Shown here piece after piece: positions 23,061-41,503 of a DNA stretch of 64,000 nt. The position numbers and the translations under genes are program-made. The notes under the pieces were generated by a model. The model searched no databases and was not told where the DNA came from. It saw only the letters and a program-made list of their open reading frames with translations. Every line of letters begins with the position of its first letter. The stretch's first letter is position 1. Source of the DNA: Bacteroidetes bacterium GWF2_33_38 (GTDB lineage: Bacteria > Bacteroidota > Bacteroidia > Bacteroidales > GWF2-33-38); assembly GCA_001769505.1 (NCBI GenBank), contig MEOF01000006.1, positions 1-64,000 of the forward strand. The letters run 5' to 3'.

Positions 23061-24785
23061 CTACAGTTTTTTTGTAAAGTTTATAAACTTCAATATTTCA
23101 GAAACGGCGGTATGTAAATCATATTTATTGATATCAATTATTAGAGGACTTACCATTGACCAATGTGTGATAACTTTCTCAATTAAATTTTCACGAACAA
23201 TGATAATAATGGGTTTATTTGTATTGAGCAAAATATCAGTCAGACTTGATGCCCAACCCTGATTATTTAGTTCAAAAAAACCGATTTCATCAATCACAAT
23301 TACCTCTGAATCAGAAATATTTTCTGTTGCCAAGATTTTTTTTCCAAATTCGAGACCTTCGTTGCGAAAGTAGTACTTCCCTACATTTATCATGCTTTCA
23401 TCGCCTGATGTCCTTGACAAAACGATGTTTTCGTTCGTTTTTAAATCAACTAAATTATAGCCAATACGAATGCTATTTTCATGAATTGCAGGACAAAGAA
23501 TACCTCCAACTTTAATTTTACGCTGATTTAAATCGCTGATAATTTGAGTTAAAAAACTGGTTTTTCCTTGCCCAATTCCTCCGGTAATAATGATTGCTTT
23601 CTGATTAGAAGCGTTTTTCATTTTTATCTCATCTAAGCGAAATTCAGCCTGCGAAATAACTTGATGAATTATCGAGACCGGATTTTTAACAATTGTTTTA
23701 AAATCGGGAATATTTGCTATCATTGATGGTAAACTTTCAAAAGAAAGTTCAAGAGCCAAAGGTAATTGCTTAAAATATGTTTTAAGAAAAAACTGTTGAA
23801 TCTTTGGATTGTATAGTTCGGTACCCAGAATTGAAAATCCAACGATAATGATTACAGCTCTAAAATTCATCTGAATACCAATCATTAATCCGTATTCGAG
23901 AGTATTGGATTGAATTTTAGCAAAAACAAAAGCGGTAATCATAGTTAATAAAACAAAAAATATCCAAAACTTAGGTTTTGAAAGTTTTCGTAATGCTCGT
24001 TTGTATCGAAATGCCCAAAGACCAACAATCCCAATGATTGATAAACTCCATACGAGAACTGACGTAAAATTTAAAAGTACTAATGCAATTATAATTAGCC
24101 CGATATTAACAAAAAGCCAAGTGATGGAATAATTAAAATCAATCTTCGATTTTTGTTGATGTTGAGATACGTTGCTGCTAAAATTTTGTGGCTGGTATGC
24201 TTTGGGTTCTTTTAAAATCTTTCGACCAACTCTAATACCTATAATTGCCGAAATAATTCCTAATATTGCATATGCGACTAATAAAACAATAATAGGAAAC
24301 CAAACGATATCGAACTGAATATTGATTTGCTTTTGTGCAAGTTTTAGTAAACTCGTATAAATTTCTACGATGTTCGAACCGTAAAAAATAATTAGATTTA
24401 TAATCTTTTGAGCTAAATTCCACGACATTGCCAGCATAGCTCCTATTATAAAACCAAACCATGTTTTTCCGAACAATCTAAGCGAAAGTTCCAATAAAAC
24501 GGCTTCGCTAAAAATGGCAATCATGGGTCCAAAAATTACTGCACTTGGCGACATGGTTTTCATTATGGCACAAATCAATCCGGCTCTCCAAATCAAGCCT
24601 TTCTCTGTCCAAATATAACTAATTGAAATTAAGATAATGATTCCGATTCCGGTTAAAATATTTCCGCTGAATGGGATTTTTAAATTATGTAAAAAGCTAC
24701 CTAGTACAATTTCTGATGCAGCCCAAATTGTTCCCATAATGGATGCTTTTATCCATTTTTCGCTTAATTGCTTGTGGTTATTCAC
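23061..24785 (-). CDS. Membrane protein fused to a THEP1-like NTPase (ECF-transporter-like)
   Basis: 574 residues. About 1-190 is a hydrophobic domain of five to six helices resembling an ECF transporter substrate-binding (S) component. After a polar linker (about 190-215) a second membrane domain follows (about 215-385), with a loop ending LALELSFESLPSMIANIP that recalls the coupling helices of EcfT/CbiQ. About 395-574 is a nucleotide-binding domain with Walker A GGIGQGKT, Walker B IVIDEIGFFEL and overall features of the THEP1 nucleoside-triphosphatase family (NTPase_1). The fusion suggests an importer energised by THEP1 rather than an ABC ATPase. Substrate unknown. The S- and T-like assignments are inference; THEP1 is well supported. 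Confidence 0.75.
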   Translation of the reverse strand: MNNHKQLSEKWIKASIMGTIWAASEIVLGSFLHNLKIPFSGNILTGIGIIILISISYIWTEKGLIWRAGLICAIMKTMSPSAVIFGPMIAIFSEAVLLELSLRLFGKTWFGFIIGAMLAMSWNLAQKIINLIIFYGSNIVEIYTSLLKLAQKQINIQFDIVWFPIIVLLVAYAILGIISAIIGIRVGRKILKEPKAYQPQNFSSNVSQHQQKSKIDFNYSITWLFVNIGLIIIALVLLNFTSVLVWSLSIIGIVGLWAFRYKRALRKLSKPKFWIFFVLLTMITAFVFAKIQSNTLEYGLMIGIQMNFRAVIIIVGFSILGTELYNPKIQQFFLKTYFKQLPLALELSFESLPSMIANIPDFKTIVKNPVSIIHQVISQAEFRLDEIKMKNASNQKAIIITGGIGQGKTSFLTQIISDLNQRKIKVGGILCPAIHENSIRIGYNLVDLKTNENIVLSRTSGDESMINVGKYYFRNEGLEFGKKILATENISDSEVIVIDEIGFFELNNQGWASSLTDILLNTNKPIIIIVRENLIEKVITHWSMVSPLIIDINKYDLHTAVSEILKFINFTKKL

Positions 24786-29623: not shown

Positions 29624-32600
29624 TTAGTTTTTATTTGCATCCGACTTTCTAACCATATCTAAGAGTTTATTCAAGGCATCGTTGTTGAAATTGAAAATTG
29701 CCGACTCAACTCTATCTGCCCATTTTTCAATATTTTCGGTATTATTGAGCAACTTAATTTTATTAAGAATATCAAGATTTTTACTAATCTCATAAATCTT
29801 ATTATCTTCAAAACGTAAAATATATGGTCCTATTTTCATAACCTCTTCAGGAGTCAACTCAACAGTGTTAATGCGTTGTTCTTCTTCTTGTAGTTTTTTA
29901 ACGTCTTCTTTATTTGAATCAACTACCCTAGGAATTGTAAAAAAGAAGTTGCTTCCTTTTCCTAATTCTGATTCAACCCAAATTCTACCTCCATGAGCTT
30001 CTACTACAAGTTTGCAGAAAGTTAGACCAATCCCCGTTGAACTTGCACCTCCTGATTTTTTAGCAGCAACTTGAGTAAATGGATTGAAAATACTATCAAT
30101 CATATTTGGAGGAATCCCTGAGCCTGTATCCGAAATTGAAATTTTTATGAACTCTTTTTCATTTTCAATTTCAGGAACTGTGTTTAATGTTATTTTTCCA
30201 CCCGATTCGGTGTATTTTATGGCATTGGTCATTAAATTCACAATTACTCGTTGAATTATATCGTAGTCATAGTCTGACTGATATTGTGGTTTTACTCCGT
30301 TTACAAGAGTCAATCCTTTTTCGTTCAATAAAATAGAAACATCACTGATTGCACTCTTTGTAACAGTCAATATATTATGAATATTTTTATTAAGCTGAAC
30401 TTGAGTATCTTCAAATTTTTGAACATCTAACATATTCAATACCATGTTCAGCATTTGTTTTCCTGCTTGATTAATGTTTTTCAAATTTTTCTCAGTGAAA
30501 AGCTGACCTGAAAAAGTGATGATTGAATTTAAATGATTTTTCATATCATGCACAATCATACTAGTGAAAGAATCTTTAAATATTTCTAATTCTTTCATTT
30601 TATTATACGCTTCGTTTAGCTGGTCTCGCTGTGCTTTAATTTCTTCATTTTGTTGCTTAATTTCCTCTTCGGCAAGTTTAATTGAAGATATATCAGAATC
30701 AATCGCAACGTATTTTCTTATTTCTCCCTCGTCATTCAAAATAGGGGTTAGGGTGGTTTGAACCCAAATACTTTTCCCATTTTTGGTTTTTGCAGGAGCG
30801 TTGTAAACAATCGATTTCTTTTTCTCGGTACACTTTTTAAACTCTTCTTCTATTTCAGGATTTGAACTTGAATGTAGAATATTTTCTCCAACTAATATTC
30901 GAAACTCATCAAGAGTATAGCCATAAAGTTTCCTAAATCCTTCGTTTACCCATTCAATCGTTCCCTCATTGTCAGCAATCATTACTGAATTTTCGGTTTC
31001 GCTGGCAACAATCGATAATTTCTCAAGCTCTTTGTTAACATTTGCCATATTCTCTGCTTGAGCTCTAATTTCTTCGGCTTGTTGCTCTACAACGGCTTTT
31101 TCCTTTTGAAGTTCCATTGTTCGCTGATTAACTTTTTCTTCAAGAATTTCTTTCTCAAGTTCAAGTTTTTTTAGTCTCCAACGAACAAATAATGTTATAA
31201 GAGCAAGAGATACAATACTTGTAACAGTATAAAACCACCAAGTTCTCCAAAATGGAGGACTAATTGTAAAACTAAATGATTTTGGTTCAAGATTACAAAC
31301 TCCATCATTATTACAAGCTTTTACTTTAAATGTATAATCTCCTGGAGGAATATAGGAATAAATAATTTCGTTGTTATACGAAGGAGGAGCCCACTTTTTG
31401 TCAAATCCTTCGAGAATCCACTCATATTTAACTTTTTCGGGAGCATGAAAATCAATCCCTGTAAAACTAAATGTAAGGTGATTTTGATCATATGGAAGAA
31501 CTAATTTTTTTGGTAATGTTCCCCATTCTTCAAGACTATCAACATATTGAGACCAATCGGTATCTTGAAAAAATAATTTAATCGACGATATCGAAGTAAG
31601 TGGTTCCATTATGTTTGGATAGTCAAAATTTGGAATATACATTGTTGCTCCTTGTATATTTCCAAACCAAATAAATCCTCGATGGTCTTCCATTACGGCA
31701 TTCAAGTTTGCCTCAATTGCTCTAAATCCTTCCGATTTTCCGTATGTTTTAATAACTGGTGTTTCACTACCATCGTAAAAAGCGATTCGATTTAAACCTT
31801 TTTCAGTTCCTGCCCACAGATATCCTTGCGAATCGGAAAAAAGTAAGAATACATTGTTTGAATTTAATCCGTCTCGCATCGAAAATGTTTTGAGGTCAGC
31901 TCCATTGAAACGACAAATTCCACCTCCAAAACTACCAAACCAAACATTGCCCGACATGTCTTCTGCTATTGAATATATTTGGTCTTTGGTTAATCCAAAT
32001 CGTCTTGATAAATTAAGAATATTATTTGTTCCTATTTTCTTATTTTTTATAATTTCATTTGAATTATAATCGGCAAAAATTAAATCAACTCCAGCATCAT
32101 CGGTTCCAAGCCAGATATTTCCTTTACTATCTTGAAATACGTTATAAATTAAATCGGAACTTATTCCGTCTTTCTCTCTAATTGCTGTAAATTCTTTACC
32201 ATCATATATCATTAATCCGCCACCAACCGAACCAATTAAAATATTTCCAAGTTTGTCTTCAATGATTGAATAAATATAATCGTGCGAAAGTCCATTTGAA
32301 GAATTAAAATTTTTGAATCGTTTTCCATCATAAATACTTAATCCACCACCTTTTGAACCAAACCACAAGTTACCTTTACTATCTTCAAAAATCCGATAAA
32401 TGAGATTTGAACACAATCCATCTTCGGTTGTAAAATATTCAAATTCGGTTCCGTTGTATTTGCACAATCCGCCACCGTAAGTTCCAAACCAAATATTGTT
32501 CTGCGTATCTTCGTATAGTGACATTACAACATTACTCGACAAACCGTCTTTCTCGGTAAAATGTTGAAAACGCTCTCCATCAAATTTACATATACCTGCC

Positions 32601-33520
32601 CCATCGGTACTAAACCACATATTTCCACTTCTATCTTGAAGAATAGAATTTATATAATCGTATGATAATCCATTGCTTCTACTAAAATGAATATATTCTC
32701 TACCATTAAACCGTGAAACTCCCTGTCCTAAATACGAAAACCAAATATTTCCAGATCGGTCGCTGAAAACGGAACTCACATTATTTCCACTTAATCCATT
32801 TTCTTGAAAAAGATTGTAAAACTTGTACCCATCGTATTCACTGACTCCATATCGAGTTCCAAACCAAATATGTCCTTTAATGTCTTCTGAAATTGAATTA
32901 ATTGAATTATTACAAAGTCCATTTCTAGTTGTTAATTGCTTAAACTTTAAATTATCGTTAACATACGCACCATGATGCTGAGTTCCAATCCAAAGTTTAC
33001 CGTATTTATCCAATAAAAAAGTTTGTACATTTACATCAGCAGAATCGGTTGTTAAAGCAACTTTTTGTATTTTATCGTCACGCATTACAAACAAGCCCGA
33101 CTGAGTTCCAATCCATAAATTCCCAGCGACATCTTGAGTAATTGCTTGAACTGTAGGAGAAGTTAAGCCCTTCTTCTCGCCATATGGAGTAAATTTAACT
33201 CCATTAAACTTACACAGATAACCATCTTTAAGTCCAACCCATATATTTCCATCGCGGTCTTCATACAATGCTCGAATTTGATTATTCGATAATCCGTCTT
33301 CTTGTGAATATGTTTTAAATTTAATTCCATCGAATACGCTTATTCCGCCACCATCGGTTCCAATCCATAAATAGCCCCGACTATCCTCAATAAATGCTTT
33401 AATTTGCGATTGGGCAATCCCATGCTCAATACTATAATTTGTAAAATTATATTGCTGACCTAATAATGTCGCATAAATGAAAACAAACAGTATAAGAGTC
33501 AAATACTTTTTTAAAGCCAT
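29624..33520 (-). CDS. Two-component histidine kinase with 14-blade propeller sensor
   Basis: 1298 residues. A signal sequence (1-20) leads to about 14 Reg_prop repeats (blades with patterns like DSKGNIWFGTxGGG and GLSxxxVxSxxED, about 25-640), enough for two seven-bladed propellers. A Y_Y_Y domain (about 660-750), one membrane helix (FYTVTSIVSLALITLFVRW, about 765) and a PAS domain (about 830-950) follow. The kinase has His991 in HDMKNHL, N-box NLMTNAIKY (about 1095-1103) and G boxes DTGSGIPPN and GIGLTFCK. A further 100 residues without receiver domain end the protein. It resembles hybrid two-component sensors but lacks the fused AraC/REC output, which is supplied by the next gene. Confidence 0.92.
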   Translation of the reverse strand: MALKKYLTLILFVFIYATLLGQQYNFTNYSIEHGIAQSQIKAFIEDSRGYLWIGTDGGGISVFDGIKFKTYSQEDGLSNNQIRALYEDRDGNIWVGLKDGYLCKFNGVKFTPYGEKKGLTSPTVQAITQDVAGNLWIGTQSGLFVMRDDKIQKVALTTDSADVNVQTFLLDKYGKLWIGTQHHGAYVNDNLKFKQLTTRNGLCNNSINSISEDIKGHIWFGTRYGVSEYDGYKFYNLFQENGLSGNNVSSVFSDRSGNIWFSYLGQGVSRFNGREYIHFSRSNGLSYDYINSILQDRSGNMWFSTDGAGICKFDGERFQHFTEKDGLSSNVVMSLYEDTQNNIWFGTYGGGLCKYNGTEFEYFTTEDGLCSNLIYRIFEDSKGNLWFGSKGGGLSIYDGKRFKNFNSSNGLSHDYIYSIIEDKLGNILIGSVGGGLMIYDGKEFTAIREKDGISSDLIYNVFQDSKGNIWLGTDDAGVDLIFADYNSNEIIKNKKIGTNNILNLSRRFGLTKDQIYSIAEDMSGNVWFGSFGGGICRFNGADLKTFSMRDGLNSNNVFLLFSDSQGYLWAGTEKGLNRIAFYDGSETPVIKTYGKSEGFRAIEANLNAVMEDHRGFIWFGNIQGATMYIPNFDYPNIMEPLTSISSIKLFFQDTDWSQYVDSLEEWGTLPKKLVLPYDQNHLTFSFTGIDFHAPEKVKYEWILEGFDKKWAPPSYNNEIIYSYIPPGDYTFKVKACNNDGVCNLEPKSFSFTISPPFWRTWWFYTVTSIVSLALITLFVRWRLKKLELEKEILEEKVNQRTMELQKEKAVVEQQAEEIRAQAENMANVNKELEKLSIVASETENSVMIADNEGTIEWVNEGFRKLYGYTLDEFRILVGENILHSSSNPEIEEEFKKCTEKKKSIVYNAPAKTKNGKSIWVQTTLTPILNDEGEIRKYVAIDSDISSIKLAEEEIKQQNEEIKAQRDQLNEAYNKMKELEIFKDSFTSMIVHDMKNHLNSIITFSGQLFTEKNLKNINQAGKQMLNMVLNMLDVQKFEDTQVQLNKNIHNILTVTKSAISDVSILLNEKGLTLVNGVKPQYQSDYDYDIIQRVIVNLMTNAIKYTESGGKITLNTVPEIENEKEFIKISISDTGSGIPPNMIDSIFNPFTQVAAKKSGGASSTGIGLTFCKLVVEAHGGRIWVESELGKGSNFFFTIPRVVDSNKEDVKKLQEEEQRINTVELTPEEVMKIGPYILRFEDNKIYEISKNLDILNKIKLLNNTENIEKWADRVESAIFNFNNDALNKLLDMVRKSDANKN

Positions 33521-33607
33521 TCCTTTAATAATAAAAAATCAATTTATTTGGGATTTAAAAGTAAGAAAATTTTATTAAAAAACATTTACTAAATTTTAAA
33601 TAAAAAA

Positions 33608-33635
33608 AAAAGAGATGCAATTTTGCATCTCTTTT
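33608..33635 (-). terminator. Intrinsic terminator of the PKD/GEVED protein gene
   Basis: AAAAGAGATGCAA and TTGCATCTCTTTT form a 13-bp stem with a 2-base loop, followed on the minus strand by a T-run, 23 bases past the stop codon at 33658. Confidence 0.85.
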
Positions 33636-33657
33636 AATTCAAAATTAACCAAAAAAA

Positions 33658-36600
33658 CTATCTTTCAACTGTAATAACGAAAGCTTTTGTTTGTTTATCA
33701 GTAACTACTTTAACAACATAATTTCCTTCCAAAAATTTATTCATGCTAATCTTTGTAATATCAGATGAAATTTTGGCATTTATAAGTTCTTGCCCAAGTA
33801 CATTATATACAAACACTTTTCCTTTTTCAGAAGTTTCAATATTAATTATATTCTTCGTTGGATTAGGATAAACACTTATTCCCTCAATATCAACATTAAT
33901 ATTTTCAGTTAAACCTGTTGCTGTTGTATTTACACTAATATCATCAACAAAGAAAATAAATTTATCCGTTGATATTGAATGAATAGCAACGTAAATATCT
34001 TGATTATCGTAAGCCGATAAATCATACGTTACTTCAGTCCAAGTGCTTGGGGCCTGCTGTGCTGCCGCATCAGGTAAAACACTGAAACTTGTTGTTGAAT
34101 TATCAGTTGTTGAAACCAACACTTCGTAATCTTCTAATCCCCAAGTGCTAGGCTTTACAGTTAATACCCAAAAAGTAATTGAAGAAGATGTTCCAAGTGA
34201 TAACAGGTCTGATATTAACCAATCATCAGCTTGACTTGCATCGCTAGGATTGATAGCCATACCACATCTGTCTCCGCCGTGTGTTGTTGCAATTGGTGTT
34301 GCCAATGCTGCTAATGCTGGGTTGAATGCCATAAATCCCATTGCGGTACTCTCTCCGGTAAAGTCAAAATCATTACTTCCATATGAAGCAACTCCATCAC
34401 CATCAACAGTAGACCAAGGAGTAAAGTCTGTTGAATAATCGGTACAAGCCTCAAAATCCAACGAAAATGCGTTTACAACTGGAGCGTCAGTAACTATAAT
34501 ATATCCAAGCTTGGTTTCAGGAGCAGAACTTCCAACTCCATTCGTTGCAACTAAAGTAACATCGTAAGTTCCTGCAACATTGTAAACAACTGCTTGGTTT
34601 TGAGTAGTTGAACTAGCTGGTGTGCCTCCTGCAAAAGTCCATGCCCAAGAAGTTGGTCCATTTGTCGATAAATCGGTAAAAGTAACAGTTTCTCCTGTAT
34701 AAATTGTTGTAACATCGGCTGAAAAATCAGCAACTGGAGGAGTTGAAAGAGGATTAACAGTGATATAATTTGTAACCGTTTTTGTATCATTTCCTGCAGC
34801 ATTTTCTACATACAACGTAACGTCATATGTTCCTTGTGTCGCATATGTAATCACTGGATTTTCTAATGTAGATGTAGCAGGAGTACCTCCTTCAAATGTC
34901 CAACTAAATGTTGTTGGATTTTCAGTTGATAAGTTAGTATATGTAACTGAATTACCTTCCTCTAAAGTTGTTGGAGTTCCAGAAAAATCAGCAACAGGAG
35001 GATTTGAAACTGGAGCAATCACGTTCACAATATAATCTTCAACATCGCCATAATCTGAATCGCCACAAGGAGTAGTATTTCCATTGTAAGTAGCAGAATT
35101 GTAATGCAAACGAATTCTCATTCGAGTAGCTCCCGTCGATGCAGTAGCAGGAACAGTAATGCTTCCAGATGAAACATATGGATTACTTGTTGTTGTTCCG
35201 CCTCCATTATCCGAGAATACAGCTTCATCAGTATCAACAAAATCTCCATCTTGATTCCAGTCAATCCAAACCAATACTTGGTCTAATGAATAATAAATTG
35301 CATTTGTAATTGAAATTGCGTATGATTGTCCTAAATCAACATCAGTAGAATAAGCAGTATAGTCGCCATATCCATCAAAACCTGATGTATTGTTAATGCT
35401 TCCAAAAGTAACATTGCTGATGTATTCGTCTTCAGTAGTTGCACTAGCAGCACATGAAACTGGAGGTAATACAGAGATATAAGCAATTTTAGTTTCTGGA
35501 GCAGAACCTCCAATAGCATTCGTCGCGACAAGAGTTACATCATAAGTTCCTGCAACACTATAAGTTACCGTTGGATTTTGATTAGTTGAAGAAGTTGGAG
35601 TTCCTCCTGCAAATGTCCATGCCCAAGACGTTGGTGCATTAGTAGATAAATCGGTAAATGTAACCGTTTGTCCAACTGTAATATCTGTTGCACTAGCACT
35701 AAAATCAGCTACAGGAGGGTTCGATAATGCATTAACAGTTATATAATTAGTTACTATTTTTGTATCGTTACCGGCAGCATTTTCTACGTAAAGCGTTACG
35801 TCATATGTACCAGGAGTACTATACGTTACTACAGGATTTTCCGATGTTGATGAAGCTGGCGTTCCTCCTTCGAATGTCCAGTTCCATGTATTTGGATTTT
35901 CAGTTGATAAATCAGTGAAGGCAACAGAATTTCCAGCTTCTAAGTTTGTTGGTGTTCCAGAAAAATCGGCTACAGGAGGATTTGATGGAGCAGGAATTTG
36001 AAATGAAAATACTCTTGTTAAAGCAGAGCCACCTGAACCCATATATTCACCAGTGTGCCAAAATGTTTGTCCATCAGGATCTAAAGAAGTATGAGAATAA
36101 TCTCCAACTCTGTTTCCACTAGTTTGAGATGATACGCCAGCCGCAACAACAGTTTCAGCAAAAGACATCGTGCCAAGAGCATCTCCAGCAAGTCTTCCTG
36201 TATAGCATAAAGAAGGATATACAGAAGAAGAAGATTTGCAATATGCAAGAGCAATACTTCCATTATCGTCCATAGCAATACTACCTAACCAACGTGTATG
36301 TGCATCAGGAGTATAGGTTCCTTCTTGGTATAATGTCCATGTTCCTGTCGATTGACTTTGACGTAATTCAACCCATCTGATACTTCTTTGAGTAGAACTT
36401 ATTACCACTCCCCAATTCAATAACAATGAATTATATCCACTCCATGGTCTCCACTGTGCTCTAAAAGTTGGGATTCCTCCGATTCCATCTAATTTTTGTG
36501 TAGTTCCTGGTTGAACAACATCGTCCCAACCTGAATCGTATGATGCATCAAAAGCCGATGTATTAACTTGCGTACTTGCACTGATTGAAGCAGCTGCTGT

Positions 36601-37575
36601 AGTCCCCCAAGTTACTGTCATATTCCAAATTTTCACACCATCAGTTCCTCCGCCCCAAGCATTATCATAATAAGCGAAAAATGGTAGTGGAGTTCCTGCT
36701 GCAGGTAATTCGTCATCAGCAGCGTCAGCTGGAAGCGGAACAAAAAATGCATCAACAGAACCTGTTGTAAATGTAGCACTTATCGATCTTGCTGAAGGAT
36801 TTCCTGCAAGCATTTCGTCTCTTTCGAAACAGAACACTTTATCGGTTGATTGATTCGATGTCATATAATAACCATTTTCCCAAATTGAAAACTTCAAATA
36901 ATCAGGAAATTGTGGAGAGGTATAAGTATATGCATAATATTCACCTGTTGGGTCATTTGTTTTTGAAATAGCGATATAAATACTATTTCCAGTTTGTCCA
37001 AATTGACTTACAAACCAACGGTCTGCATATTTATCATACATAATTATTGGGTCTCCATCGTCATCAGTCGCAGGATCCCACAAAGTACTAATATTTGCTG
37101 TCAACATATTTGCTCCTGTACTTTTGTTAAATACTTTATAAGGAGTTCCGTTGATAGCTTGTACGTAATGGTTTGGACCAGCCGCTCCAGTTGGGTCATA
37201 AGGTCTAAATCCACTAGCTACTTGACCTGCCCAATCTTTTATTACGGCTCTTGACGAATTAATTTTTCTTTTACCCATCTCAGTTTGTCTAACTGCAGGA
37301 TCTTCACCATATTCAGGTCCGTCTTCTACTGAATAAAGAAAAGTTTGTGGAATTCGATGCTTTCGATCTAAGGATTCTCGAATCAACTCCATTTCACTTC
37401 TTTGTCTTTTTTTCTGAACATAAGGATGTTCCTTTACTATTTCACGCAATGGAAGTGTTTCGTGAAATTCAGTAGGATAATATACTTCATAGCTAGTACT
37501 TTGTCCTAGAGAATTCAATGAAATAACACTACAAATTGCGAAAACGCCTAAAATAATTTGTAATTTTCTTTTCAT
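33658..37575 (-). CDS. Large T9SS-exported protein with PKD, GEVED and anchor-J domains
   Basis: 1305 residues from ATG 37575. An in-frame ATG at 37617 is unlikely because the promoter -7 element overlaps it. Signal peptide 1-26 ends NSLGQS. The first 500 residues are not a family I recognise. Then: PKD domains (about 515-600 and 610-690; PVADFSGT and ADFSAS starts), a GEVED domain (about 700-830, with DWNQDGDF and CGDSDYGDVEDY), two more PKD domains (about 840-1010), a cleaved-adhesin/anchor-J domain (about 1030-1210) and a T9SS tail from SVYPNPTKN. A surface-exposed or secreted protein; the N-terminal domain may be the functional part. Shares modules with the protease encoded next to it. 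Confidence 0.87.
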   Translation of the reverse strand: MKRKLQIILGVFAICSVISLNSLGQSTSYEVYYPTEFHETLPLREIVKEHPYVQKKRQRSEMELIRESLDRKHRIPQTFLYSVEDGPEYGEDPAVRQTEMGKRKINSSRAVIKDWAGQVASGFRPYDPTGAAGPNHYVQAINGTPYKVFNKSTGANMLTANISTLWDPATDDDGDPIIMYDKYADRWFVSQFGQTGNSIYIAISKTNDPTGEYYAYTYTSPQFPDYLKFSIWENGYYMTSNQSTDKVFCFERDEMLAGNPSARSISATFTTGSVDAFFVPLPADAADDELPAAGTPLPFFAYYDNAWGGGTDGVKIWNMTVTWGTTAAASISASTQVNTSAFDASYDSGWDDVVQPGTTQKLDGIGGIPTFRAQWRPWSGYNSLLLNWGVVISSTQRSIRWVELRQSQSTGTWTLYQEGTYTPDAHTRWLGSIAMDDNGSIALAYCKSSSSVYPSLCYTGRLAGDALGTMSFAETVVAAGVSSQTSGNRVGDYSHTSLDPDGQTFWHTGEYMGSGGSALTRVFSFQIPAPSNPPVADFSGTPTNLEAGNSVAFTDLSTENPNTWNWTFEGGTPASSTSENPVVTYSTPGTYDVTLYVENAAGNDTKIVTNYITVNALSNPPVADFSASATDITVGQTVTFTDLSTNAPTSWAWTFAGGTPTSSTNQNPTVTYSVAGTYDVTLVATNAIGGSAPETKIAYISVLPPVSCAASATTEDEYISNVTFGSINNTSGFDGYGDYTAYSTDVDLGQSYAISITNAIYYSLDQVLVWIDWNQDGDFVDTDEAVFSDNGGGTTTSNPYVSSGSITVPATASTGATRMRIRLHYNSATYNGNTTPCGDSDYGDVEDYIVNVIAPVSNPPVADFSGTPTTLEEGNSVTYTNLSTENPTTFSWTFEGGTPATSTLENPVITYATQGTYDVTLYVENAAGNDTKTVTNYITVNPLSTPPVADFSADVTTIYTGETVTFTDLSTNGPTSWAWTFAGGTPASSTTQNQAVVYNVAGTYDVTLVATNGVGSSAPETKLGYIIVTDAPVVNAFSLDFEACTDYSTDFTPWSTVDGDGVASYGSNDFDFTGESTAMGFMAFNPALAALATPIATTHGGDRCGMAINPSDASQADDWLISDLLSLGTSSSITFWVLTVKPSTWGLEDYEVLVSTTDNSTTSFSVLPDAAAQQAPSTWTEVTYDLSAYDNQDIYVAIHSISTDKFIFFVDDISVNTTATGLTENINVDIEGISVYPNPTKNIINIETSEKGKVFVYNVLGQELINAKISSDITKISMNKFLEGNYVVKVVTDKQTKAFVITVER

Positions 37576-37614
37576 GTTTTTTTGTTTTAATATAGACTTT
37601 GGTTTAATTGTAAT

Positions 37615-37645
37615 CAAAAATAAGATTTTTTTTTATGTTAGTCAA
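37615..37645 (-). promoter_or_regulatory. Promoter of the PKD/GEVED protein gene
   Basis: Minus-strand TTG (37643-37645), 20 bases, TATTTTTG (37615-37622). The core is nearly the same as that before the C25 protease (41473-41503): ATCAAAAATAAG, ten variable bases, ATGTTA, one base, TCAAG on the plus strand at identical spacing. It decides the start at 37575. Confidence 0.7.
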
Positions 37646-37699
37646 GTTAATTTGGTTGTTTATCAAAATTTGATTTTTTTTTTGACTAATGACAAAAAA

Positions 37700-37724
37700 A
37701 AGAGCTGCGAAAAACACAGCTCTT
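37700..37724 (-). terminator. Intrinsic terminator of the C25 protease gene
   Basis: AAGAGCTG and CAGCTCTT form an 8-bp stem around a 9-base loop, followed by a run of T on the minus strand, 23 bases past the stop codon at 37748. Confidence 0.8.
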
Positions 37725-37747
37725 AAATATATAGGATTACTTAATCT

Positions 37748-40700
37748 TTATTTTATAGTAAGCTTTTGAGAATAAACATTATTTCCAGATGTATAAACTT
37801 TGATAATATACAATCCTTTGTGTAGTTTGCCAACATCAAGTTTTACCGATTTATCAGATACTTTTTTATTTATAATTTCCTGTCCTAATAAATTATACAA
37901 GCATACTTTTTCGATATTTTTGGCAGAAATATTTACAAAATCATTTGCAGGATTCGGGTAAATTGAAATCCCATTAACAATTAATTTTTCAACTACCAAT
38001 GGAGGTTGGTTAACTGTTGCAGAGTTTGATGCAATACATCCATTATTATCAACAACCTCAACATCATAAGCTCCAGCAATCAAGCCTGAAATATCTTCAG
38101 TTGATTCTGCATTTGACCAAAGTATAGAAAATGGTAAAGTCCCTCCAATAATTGTCATATCAATTGATCCATCAGACGCACCATAAACAGAGGCGTCGTT
38201 AGTAACAAAAGTTAGTGATGGAGGAGTTGTAACAGTAATATAATCAGTTTTTATTTCACTATCCGAAGAACTAGAATTAGTTGCTATAAGCGTTACATTA
38301 AAAGTTCCGTTAGCCGAATATGTAACAATAGGATTTTCTTCGGTACTTGTTGCAGGTGTTCCTCCTTCAAATGTCCATTCGTAAGAAGTTGCATCACTGC
38401 TTGAATTCGTGTATTGAACTTGACCATTGGTACAAACTGCTGTAACATCTGCAGAAAAGGCAGACGTTGGTACCAAAATAACATTTAACGAATAATCTTC
38501 CACTTCGCCATAATCAGAATCACCGCAAGGTTCAGCCATTGGACCATAACTTGTATCATGTAACCGCACTCTCATTCTTGTTGTTCCTAAACTCGCTCCA
38601 ACTGGAGGAGTTATTGATGTATTATAGGTATAGTTTCCAGACGCCCCTGTAACAGCCGACGTATAAACTGTTTCTCCTAGGTCAGCAAAATCTCCATCTT
38701 TATTCCAATCAACCCAAATAAGAATCTGATCAGAAGAATAAGCTCCTGTTAACGTTACACTTATAACACTTGCTTGATTAACATAAACATCAGCCTCTTG
38801 TGTTGCCGTATAGTCAGTATAGCTTGTTGCTGCTGTGGTATTGTTTATGTCGCTAATCGTAACATTCGAGATATATTCATAAGATGTACTTGCCGAAGAC
38901 GCATCGCAATAATCAGGAAGCATAACTGTTATGTACAATGGTTTTTCTTCGATTCCTGTACCAAATTCATTTGTAGCATACAATGTAACAGCGTAAACAC
39001 CTGGGGTTGTATAAATTATTCCTGATGGATTTTGTTGTGTTGAAGAAGAAGGAGTCCCCCCTTCGAATATCCATGCCCATGAAGTTGGCTGGTTGTTTGA
39101 CAAATCGGTAAAATCGACAGTGCCTCCCATAACAATATTTGTTACACTTGCTGTAAAATCTGCAACTGGAGCTTCTGTTACTGGGTTCACAGTAATGTAT
39201 TCAACTTTTGTGAGAGAATCTTCTCCTGCCATATTTGTAACCGTCAAAGTAACAGTATAAGTACCTTCTGAATTGTAAGTTATTGTAGGATGTGATGCGG
39301 TTGATGTTGCTGGAATACCACCTTCAAATTCCCATAACCAAGATGATGGATAATTTTCTGATAAATCAGTAAATGTAACCGTCTCTCCTTCAATTACAGT
39401 TGTAGGAGTTCCTGAAAAATCGCAAATAGGAGCAACCGAAACAGCTACCGTATGTTCAGCCGAATATGTAGCCAAATTAAATCCTGTTACAGTAAGCGTT
39501 ACTGTTCCTGTATATGGGTGTGAAATAGAAACATTTCCAGAAGCATCGGTCATTGCTGAAGAAGGCTGTTCTTCTGAATCGTTATACAACGATACTAAGG
39601 CTCCTTCGAATGGTAAGCCATCAACCAAAATTTGGGTTGAATAAACACCTGGAGTTACGTTAAGATTTGATACGGTAATTGCATCTGGAGTTTTTGTTCT
39701 AACTTGCACCGAAGCATCTCCAAAAACAGTCCATGTATAATAGGTATCCCAGTCTTCACTTGCATCAGATTCTGTAACCATCATTGCTGTTGCATTAAAA
39801 GTGATTGCCCCAAAAGTTGTCTTTCCGTACGTAGTTGATGTTCCATCACCAGGATTAGCCGCATAGTCATATCCTTGGGTTAAAATATCATTCATATAAT
39901 CTTGACCTCTCATAGGTGGTGTCCAAGGTTGATTCATCGTTGACATCAGCGACGCTAATGCTCCTCCTCCTTCTCTGCGAAGAAGTGCTTCAGCAAGACA
40001 ATCGCCCGAAGTATTGAATTCTCCAACAACACAAGCAACCGAAAAAACAATCGGTAATTCACTTCCATTTGAAGCACTTGCAGCATTAGTTGTAGAATAA
40101 TTACTTGTTACCCAATATGTTTTTGCTCCGTGACCACAATAGTTAATAACCCCCAAACCAGCATTTAATGGAGTAGAAACCTGCGAGGAAGTAACGCTTG
40201 CACCGTAAGCTTCAGAAACTGATCCCGAATATGTGAATGGAACTAATTTATTTTCTTTAATTATATCAATATGAGCATAATCAATTTCTGAATCATCTCC
40301 GATACCAGAGCCTTCGGCTGAACCGATTCCCAAGCCGTCTGAATACCAAGTTCCTGCTAAATCGGGATTTTTTTCATAATTTATGGCTTTATTCCCTTGA
40401 GTTGTAACGTGAGCTGTTGTACTAGCAGAAAAACGTCCGATAATAATATCGTGATAATCATCGGTACCTTCTACGCAACCAAGCATTGGATCCATTGGAG
40501 TATTTTCGCTACCACCAAGGTCAGAAACTATATCAGCCCAGTCACCAACTAATTGAACATACAAAATGTTTTTATTTGCGTTGTATGCATTTTGAATAGT
40601 TGTTTTAACATTTGTTCCTGTTGCAACTTGTGTTTCGTGAACATTATATCCCATTTGCTTTTTCCACGTAATCCATGGTTGTATTACAGAAGCATCTCGA

Positions 40701-41446
40701 GACGTATATATAACTAGTATGTCTCCAAATTGAGCTAACTCATCGCTCCATCGAACTGCGTTTTGGTTATAATTTACGAACAACGATTCGTAAATCGGAG
40801 CAATACCTTTATTTACAAGATTATTATTTGTCAAAGGATTAATTACTCGAGTGTTATTTTCGACAACTTTAATGGTAACTTTTTTATAAACTCTTAACGT
40901 ATTTTCAGCAGCATTATATCTGAATGGAAATACTTTAATATTTGCTCCTCTAACGTTTCTGATGATATATGGTGAAGACATCTCTGTTAAAGACGAAGGA
41001 TATAATTCGCTCGTTATTGAAGCAGGGTCAATTTCAAATGGAATTTCTGACGGATTTTGATTTCTATATATTACACCTCGAGATGGTAATAATGGTTTTT
41101 CTAATAAATACTCAACGTAATCTTCGCTAACGACCTCAATTGATACATTCTTGTTATTGGGTAACTGAACTGAAGCAGACATGTATGGCAACTCCGCCCA
41201 ACCTTTTTTCTTTAGGACGATATTTTTACCAAATTCAATAGTAGTATATGCTACTCCATTTTTTTCAACTGTTTCTAACCTATATTTATCTAAATCAAAA
41301 TCCAGCGTAAATTCTGAACTTCTGTTCTGATTAAACGTAACGTCATAGCCTCCATTCTTTTTAACAATAGACTGTGAGTTAGCTTCAATAGTGAAAGAAA
41401 TCATCATAATCGTAGCTACTAAAGCGAAAGTGTTTTTGAAATTCAT
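37748..41446 (-). CDS. Gingipain-like C25 family cysteine peptidase with T9SS tail
   Basis: 1232 residues from ATG 41446; the in-frame ATG at 41503 overlaps the -33 element and is rejected. Signal peptide about 1-25 ends EANSQS. A gingipain-type propeptide (about 30-200) precedes a C25 domain (about 215-560) with catalytic His439 in NYCGHGAK and Cys472 in VACVVGEF. It is followed by an Ig-like segment, two PKD domains (about 660-830), a GEVED domain (about 840-970), another PKD and a SprB-like repeat (about 1070-1150), and a T9SS tail from SIYPNPAND. A secreted or surface protease for protein degradation, by homology with Porphyromonas gingipains. Substrate preference cannot be read. Confidence 0.93.
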   Translation of the reverse strand: MNFKNTFALVATIMMISFTIEANSQSIVKKNGGYDVTFNQNRSSEFTLDFDLDKYRLETVEKNGVAYTTIEFGKNIVLKKKGWAELPYMSASVQLPNNKNVSIEVVSEDYVEYLLEKPLLPSRGVIYRNQNPSEIPFEIDPASITSELYPSSLTEMSSPYIIRNVRGANIKVFPFRYNAAENTLRVYKKVTIKVVENNTRVINPLTNNNLVNKGIAPIYESLFVNYNQNAVRWSDELAQFGDILVIYTSRDASVIQPWITWKKQMGYNVHETQVATGTNVKTTIQNAYNANKNILYVQLVGDWADIVSDLGGSENTPMDPMLGCVEGTDDYHDIIIGRFSASTTAHVTTQGNKAINYEKNPDLAGTWYSDGLGIGSAEGSGIGDDSEIDYAHIDIIKENKLVPFTYSGSVSEAYGASVTSSQVSTPLNAGLGVINYCGHGAKTYWVTSNYSTTNAASASNGSELPIVFSVACVVGEFNTSGDCLAEALLRREGGGALASLMSTMNQPWTPPMRGQDYMNDILTQGYDYAANPGDGTSTTYGKTTFGAITFNATAMMVTESDASEDWDTYYTWTVFGDASVQVRTKTPDAITVSNLNVTPGVYSTQILVDGLPFEGALVSLYNDSEEQPSSAMTDASGNVSISHPYTGTVTLTVTGFNLATYSAEHTVAVSVAPICDFSGTPTTVIEGETVTFTDLSENYPSSWLWEFEGGIPATSTASHPTITYNSEGTYTVTLTVTNMAGEDSLTKVEYITVNPVTEAPVADFTASVTNIVMGGTVDFTDLSNNQPTSWAWIFEGGTPSSSTQQNPSGIIYTTPGVYAVTLYATNEFGTGIEEKPLYITVMLPDYCDASSASTSYEYISNVTISDINNTTAATSYTDYTATQEADVYVNQASVISVTLTGAYSSDQILIWVDWNKDGDFADLGETVYTSAVTGASGNYTYNTSITPPVGASLGTTRMRVRLHDTSYGPMAEPCGDSDYGEVEDYSLNVILVPTSAFSADVTAVCTNGQVQYTNSSSDATSYEWTFEGGTPATSTEENPIVTYSANGTFNVTLIATNSSSSDSEIKTDYITVTTPPSLTFVTNDASVYGASDGSIDMTIIGGTLPFSILWSNAESTEDISGLIAGAYDVEVVDNNGCIASNSATVNQPPLVVEKLIVNGISIYPNPANDFVNISAKNIEKVCLYNLLGQEIINKKVSDKSVKLDVGKLHKGLYIIKVYTSGNNVYSQKLTIK

Positions 41447-41472
41447 AGTTCCGTTTTTAAAGTTTATTTTAT

Positions 41473-41503
41473 CAAAAATAAGCATAAAAAAAATGTTAAT
41501 CAA
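41473..41503 (-). promoter_or_regulatory. Promoter of the C25 protease gene
   Basis: Minus-strand TTG (41501-41503), 20 bases, TATTTTTG (41473-41480). Nearly the same layout and sequence as the promoter at 37615-37645, suggesting shared control of the two secreted proteins. Confidence 0.7.

Follow-up and report, generated by a model that had tools for sequence, protein, structure and literature searches.

The question raised by the gene studied here is what a single polypeptide that joins two membrane domains to a THEP1-type NTPase would do for the cell; to our knowledge, no cellular role has been established for THEP1, a conserved NTPase. The gene occupies positions 23061-24785 of the window (the whole stretch of DNA analysed, 64,000 nucleotides) on the minus strand, a strand left unstated in the initial annotation. 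The frame was open over 574 codons from a GTG start with no frameshift, and the plus strand there was rich in stops. From the frame and the fused homologues, the 574-aa product was divided into an S-like membrane domain, an EcfT-like membrane domain and the THEP1 NTPase. The copy in the window was flanked by a gene for a 925-aa protein upstream and by a convergent PriA gene downstream. Elsewhere in the window, three successive very large ORFs (1298, 1319 and 1251 aa) were present on the minus strand at 29624-41503.

The reading of the initial annotation that all three parts belong to one polypeptide was borne out. Full-length fused homologues with 30-63% identity were found in many independent genomes, so the fusion is genuine and not a misassembly. 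The fused protein was found in dozens of further Bacteroidota genomes, both of other Bacteroidales and of, e.g., Lutibacter, and the GTG start was aligned with the ATG starts of the homologues. A fusion artefact, a pseudogene or a chance membrane ORF, in favour of which nothing was found, is refuted by these conserved full-length homologues with every catalytic residue kept, and its probability is negligible. No relatives were found among viral contigs and plasmids, and the search of a defence-system library gave nothing beyond a weak AAA match. Family copies that are degenerate or shortened were also seen, one with stops or frameshifts (L073, genome G050) and another reduced to a remnant of THEP1 that lies behind a TonB receptor (L074:6052-6522, genome G021).

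Residues 397-569 (23079-23597, minus strand) are, as judged from sequence and modelled fold, a THEP1-type NTPase domain for which hydrolysis is predicted, as the initial annotation had proposed for the C-terminal part. Residues 398-538 were matched by Pfam PF03266 (THEP1/NTPase_1) with E=2e-26 and 93.3 bits against a curated cut-off of 23.9, and the domain was also matched by NF010248 (E=2e-28, under the equivalog cut-off). The best Foldseek matches of the full model were 2i3b (E=3e-6) and 1ye8 (E=3e-5), both of the THEP1 fold; the structure models were of moderate quality, with pLDDT of 75-76 and pTM of 0.57 and 0.71 for the full model and the membrane half, respectively. Walker A (GGIGQGKT, residues 402-409, 23559-23582, minus strand) and Walker B (IVIDEIGFFEL, residues 496-506, 23268-23300, minus strand) were both present, and GK[ST] of the former and DExG of the latter were retained in 37/37 aligned fused members. 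The ABC signature motif was absent from all 37 of these proteins. The protein was the sole PF03266 protein of its genome. By Pfam score, fold and both Walker motifs, the domain is thus like THEP1 of known structure; the proteins in those structures are soluble, about 180 residues long and stand on their own, whereas here THEP1 makes up the last third of a membrane protein or, in unfused relatives, is the product of a partner gene.

The proposal of the initial annotation that THEP1 acts as a motor in cis is strengthened by these unfused relatives, because the THEP1 gene stands beside the membrane gene in them: at L016 and L020, the membrane protein and THEP1 were encoded by adjoining, overlapping genes, and elsewhere by separate genes. 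THEP1 would power the membrane part. No paper linking THEP1 with an energy-coupling factor or with transport was found by literature search. The one paper found in which nucleoside-triphosphatase THEP1 is named was a proteome list, and the only paper found to name both THEP1 and molybdenum was likewise that list.

For the membrane part, a direct search of residues 1-385 against Pfam and NCBIfam gave nothing significant, ModB included, and nothing useful was obtained by searching PDB sequences with profiles of each membrane half. The EcfT/CbiQ half of the initial annotation was recovered by profile-profile comparison only. When residues 214-392 (23610-24146, minus strand; 41 sequences) were compared with 12 annotated EcfT proteins by hhalign, a score of 39.1 was obtained (probability 72%, pairwise E of 3.3e-5), against a maximum of 21.4 in a null set of 60 column shuffles, 60 block shuffles, reversed alignments and three unrelated membrane families. 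The path was collinear through EcfT residues 26-173 and ended ahead of the coupling helices. The A-R-G coupling motifs of EcfT (A[RK]G) were absent in the 37 fused members, in which a helix leading into THEP1 stands in their place. By these profiles, residues 214-392 are homologous to the EcfT core, and the homology is real but remote.

In comparison with ECF transporters (including CbiMNQO and BioMNY), the protein shares a remotely homologous EcfT core and a separate membrane domain of about 190 residues in the place of the S component, and its NTPase would probably lie on the cytoplasmic side as well; it differs from them in being a single chain with no ABC ATPase, no LSGGQ and no A-R-G motifs, and with an S component that is putative. 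PF02361 was rare in the class (2/149 genomes), and no EcfA-type ABC gene recurred among family neighbours. A plain cobalt-type ECF protein was considered and rejected, as no corrinoid genes recurred nearby and the resemblance to EcfT is remote.

In a different protein of 361-363 aa, seen at L050:3291-6012 and L051:3200-6123 (genomes G195 and G082, respectively), another membrane domain comes after an EcfT(CbiQ)-like one; its gene lies directly beside two amino-acid-kinase-family genes, and no ABC ATPase gene was seen within the stretch. The two kinase-family genes resemble, as we presume, those of molybdenum storage protein subunits, and the arrangement is possibly a parallel molybdenum system.

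The S-like membrane domain (residues 5-198; 24192-24773, minus strand) was delimited from alignments and was the most conserved part of the protein. Homology was found between this domain and the N-terminal stretch of distant relatives (98.5%), as well as L071:4295-4984, a membrane protein that stands alone (89.9%), and W21, E25, G29, H33, P38, G41, K76 and G136 were invariant across all versions of it. The length of about 190 residues and the six helices predicted in the model agree with the S component proposed in the initial annotation. Profiles of BioY and of riboflavin-type S components gave no match to residues 5-198, a comparison that says little for or against an S component because those two failed to match each other too. 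When the moderate model of the membrane half was compared with PDB by Foldseek, neither an S component nor EcfT was among the top 50 matches and none was below E=0.03. The domain may be an S component, and its invariant H, K and E could serve, as a candidate role, for the binding of an acidic pterin phosphate.

Upstream of the gene, the initial annotation had recognised no vitamin riboswitch, in agreement with Rfam, by which no riboswitch or other RNA was found at the gene; in a search for Moco or other riboswitches at the gene and 11 related loci, nothing was found except one tRNA. The clean Bacteroidota promoter claimed there was not recovered, as the strict pattern TTTG-N(15-25)-TANNTTTG was matched nowhere in the region upstream of the gene, and in the window it occurred at chance frequency, and sigma-70-like sites upstream of the gene were not above chance. 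At one related locus, L120:15450-15776 was a spurious ORF of 108 codons overlapping a tRNA gene (L120:15576-15649).

The substrate had been left open by the initial annotation, which proposed that gene neighbourhoods in related genomes be searched for a linked pathway. Such a pathway was found and is that of the molybdenum cofactor (Moco), within which the exact cargo can be proposed conditionally. A core Moco gene was present within six genes at 23 of the 54 family loci (24 were flagged initially, and L040, with a generic radical-SAM match only, was left out), against a rough expectation of about 7% at about 20 such genes per genome (binomial p of about 3e-13, with related loci counted as independent). 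Family neighbours were DUF364, ModE, TonB receptors, MobA/MocA, MoeA-MogA, FdhD, XdhC, xanthine dehydrogenase and polysulphide-reductase-like molybdopterin enzymes. The clearest operon (L120) was ordered as TonB receptor, DUF364, family gene, MoeA and MogA/MoaB, in a genome without MoaA and MoaC. Other orders were MobA, membrane gene and molybdopterin oxidoreductase (L065 and L066) and THEP1, MobA and membrane gene (L069). At L071:34-5634 (genome G016), genes for xanthine dehydrogenase parts, an XdhC-MobA fusion, the stand-alone S-like membrane protein and THEP1 were in an operon-like arrangement, and a split family copy was present at L066 in the same genome. Around the window copy, neither Moco genes nor DUF364 were found as neighbours.

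In distant relatives from other orders, the membrane gene was followed by THEP1 or a THEP1-MobA fusion, FdhD and a formate-dehydrogenase-like molybdoenzyme. At L093-L099, THEP1-MobA fusion proteins adjoined the membrane gene and are a second kind of THEP1 fusion in the Moco pathway. A THEP1-MobA fusion would fit a cytoplasmic processing role, and the family could accordingly be no importer at all, acting instead as a membrane-anchored NTPase by which the cofactor is finished, inserted, stored or exported, or as a sensor. The weak resemblance of THEP1 to MobB-like P-loop proteins and the structure search, which turned up no transporter of the same fold, are in keeping with this. Uptake is suggested instead by the TonB receptors in the operon and by the pair of conserved polytopic membrane domains, of which one is an EcfT-core homologue, and we consider a role other than import improbable.

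DUF364/DUF4213 was the commonest neighbour (21/54 loci); in nearly all cases its gene stood immediately upstream, as it did in most close relatives, and the two genes often overlapped. The known contexts of this protein (Dhaf4260, PDB 3l5o) include molybdate and tungstate transport, as its genes elsewhere adjoin transporters of these anions, and a flavin- or pterin-like ligand has been predicted for it (PMC2954201). It differs from the family in being a separate cytoplasmic protein outside the fusion, and it was missing from many Moco-linked loci (L061, L065, L066 and L093-L099) and from the surroundings of the window copy. If the family imported another ligand of the pathway, such as a metal-chelating metallophore or a pterin-derived chelator that DUF364 synthesises or cleaves, the frequency of DUF364, the action on flavin- or pterin-like chelators proposed for it (PMC2954201) and the TonB receptors in the same operons would be explained, and genomes without MoaC would use an unrecognised molybdopterin route. 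The many Moco-linked loci without DUF364 speak against such an importer, which is quite unlikely. We know of no alternative cPMP synthase, which counts against it too.

The distribution of the family was compared with those of the Moco genes. Among 60 relatives, molybdopterin-dinucleotide enzymes were present in 21/22 family-bearing genomes and in 17/38 others (p of 5e-5, kinship ignored), and by neighbourhood together with this co-occurrence the family is tied to the Moco pathway. The simple idea that the family goes with Moco synthesis was rejected, as about half of the owners were without MoaA and MoaC: 12 of the 22 had neither, and 9 of those 12 were also without MoeA. About half of the close-relative owners hold MoaA, MoaC and MoeA, and G001 was an exception with MoaC found and MoaA and MoeA not (genome 91% complete). 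Within the same 60 relatives, a ModB-like permease (>100 bits) was present in none of the 12 MoaC-less owners and in 17 of 22 MoaC-positive genomes, among them 7 of the 10 MoaC-positive owners.

In a sample of 395 genomes of the class, molybdopterin enzymes were present in 12/12 owners and MoaC was missing in 10 of these, five of which belong to one family. Among the enzyme-bearing genomes of this sample, the protein family was found in 10 of the 55 that lack MoaC and in 2 of the 162 that have it (Fisher p of 2e-5, phylogeny uncorrected). Among the enzyme-bearing genomes of the 60 relatives, the corresponding enrichment was not significant when incomplete genomes were included (p of 0.23) and was marginal for complete genomes (p of 0.04). 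On a tree of the membrane domain, MoaC-positive and MoaC-less owners were interspersed (7 changes, at least 5 of them forced), so the owners came to lack MoaC on more than one occasion; too few pairs were available on this tree for ModB and MoaC to be compared by a strict sign test. Molybdopterin enzymes were strongly matched in two high-quality genomes (G093 and G406) in which neither MoaC nor a family member was detected. MoaC-less enzyme-bearing genomes of this kind count against cofactor import by the family; they may have another Moco route or a missed distant member, as the distant-profile search was weak and may miss the family in the lineages of several of them.

One explanation of these data is an importer of molybdate or tungstate oxyanions in the place of ModABC, WtpABC or TupABC, with THEP1 as its motor. 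The neighbourhoods with ModE, Mob and Moe genes and molybdoenzymes are shared with those importers, from which the family differs in having no binding protein, no ModB permease and no ABC ATPase. ModE-type regulators, which classically respond to molybdate, adjoined DUF364 or the TonB receptor (ModE domain, E=1e-22), and the transporter-linked DUF364 genes elsewhere (PMC2954201) fit as well. The genome of the window has MoaA, MoaC and MoeA yet no ModB-type permease match at all and needs some route for the metal, and the MoaC-less owners are also without ModB-like permeases. In owners without MoaA and MoaC, and mostly without MoeA too, however, the imported metal would meet no pterin made by known routes although the molybdoenzyme genes are intact, and 7 of the 10 MoaC-positive owners already have a ModB-like permease. 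Oxyanion import therefore appears unlikely, although it is the main rival to the import of cofactor.

Use of an imported cofactor is the simplest reading of the genomes in which Moco enzymes and MobA/FdhD are kept while MoaA and MoaC, and usually MoeA and ModB as well, are absent. Import of Moco or molybdopterin is favoured because the family accompanies the MoaC-less state, and TonB receptors fit a cargo too large for porins. From these patterns, we infer transport, its direction, the substrate and the coupling to THEP1, and the best explanation, favoured tentatively and at slightly less than an even chance, is that the protein is a THEP1-powered ECF-like importer of Moco or a precursor at the molybdopterin level. 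Such an importer would be a single NTP-powered chain in the inner membrane: the N-terminal S-like domain would bind the substrate, the EcfT-like domain would serve as scaffold and THEP1 would replace the ABC ATPases. The most likely cargo would be Moco itself, its metal-free form or a precursor pterin. For several relatives, the proposed route starts with passage of the outer membrane through a TonB receptor. The S-like domain would then pick up the cargo on the periplasmic side, and THEP1 would hydrolyse NTP to move or release it. Finishing of the cargo and its delivery to the co-encoded enzymes would fall to MoeA/MogA, MobA/MocA, XdhC or FdhD. Because free Moco is unstable in air, its uptake would need anoxia or carrier proteins.

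In the organism of the window, the Moco gene cluster (contig C53) and molybdoenzymes (contigs C40 and C50) are present, so the protein would act there as a supplement to Moco synthesis, or it would supply the metal. Import of finished cofactor would not be essential in owners of MoaA, MoaC and MoeA, the window genome among them; this and the lack of Moco genes around the window copy speak against cofactor import.

The general belief is that Moco-dependent cells synthesise the cofactor themselves, and a literature search for Moco uptake or transporters found no bacterial importer. There is a precedent for uptake of preformed Moco in Caenorhabditis elegans, which acquires mature Moco from its bacterial diet, but this is an animal, no transporter is known for it and the route across the membrane was stated to be an open question (PMC9793310). 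In a metabolic-model study, the computed Moco uptake reactions were set aside as unrealistic (PMC3423039).

The family may thus be a long-missing kind of protein by which the molybdenum cofactor is brought into the cell. That it forms a new class of primary importers, in which a non-ABC THEP1 powers an ECF-like scaffold dedicated to the uptake of preformed Moco or molybdopterin, is possible and is put forward with reserve; THEP1-driven transport of Moco, if proven, would be a new class. If the reading is true, the family would be the first bacterial transporter for Moco salvage and would explain molybdoenzyme-using genomes without MoaA or MoaC, and it would give THEP1 a job and ECF-like transport a second kind of motor. 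The family offers a concrete gene for the question of how Moco crosses membranes, in bacteria that seem to be Moco auxotrophs by nature.
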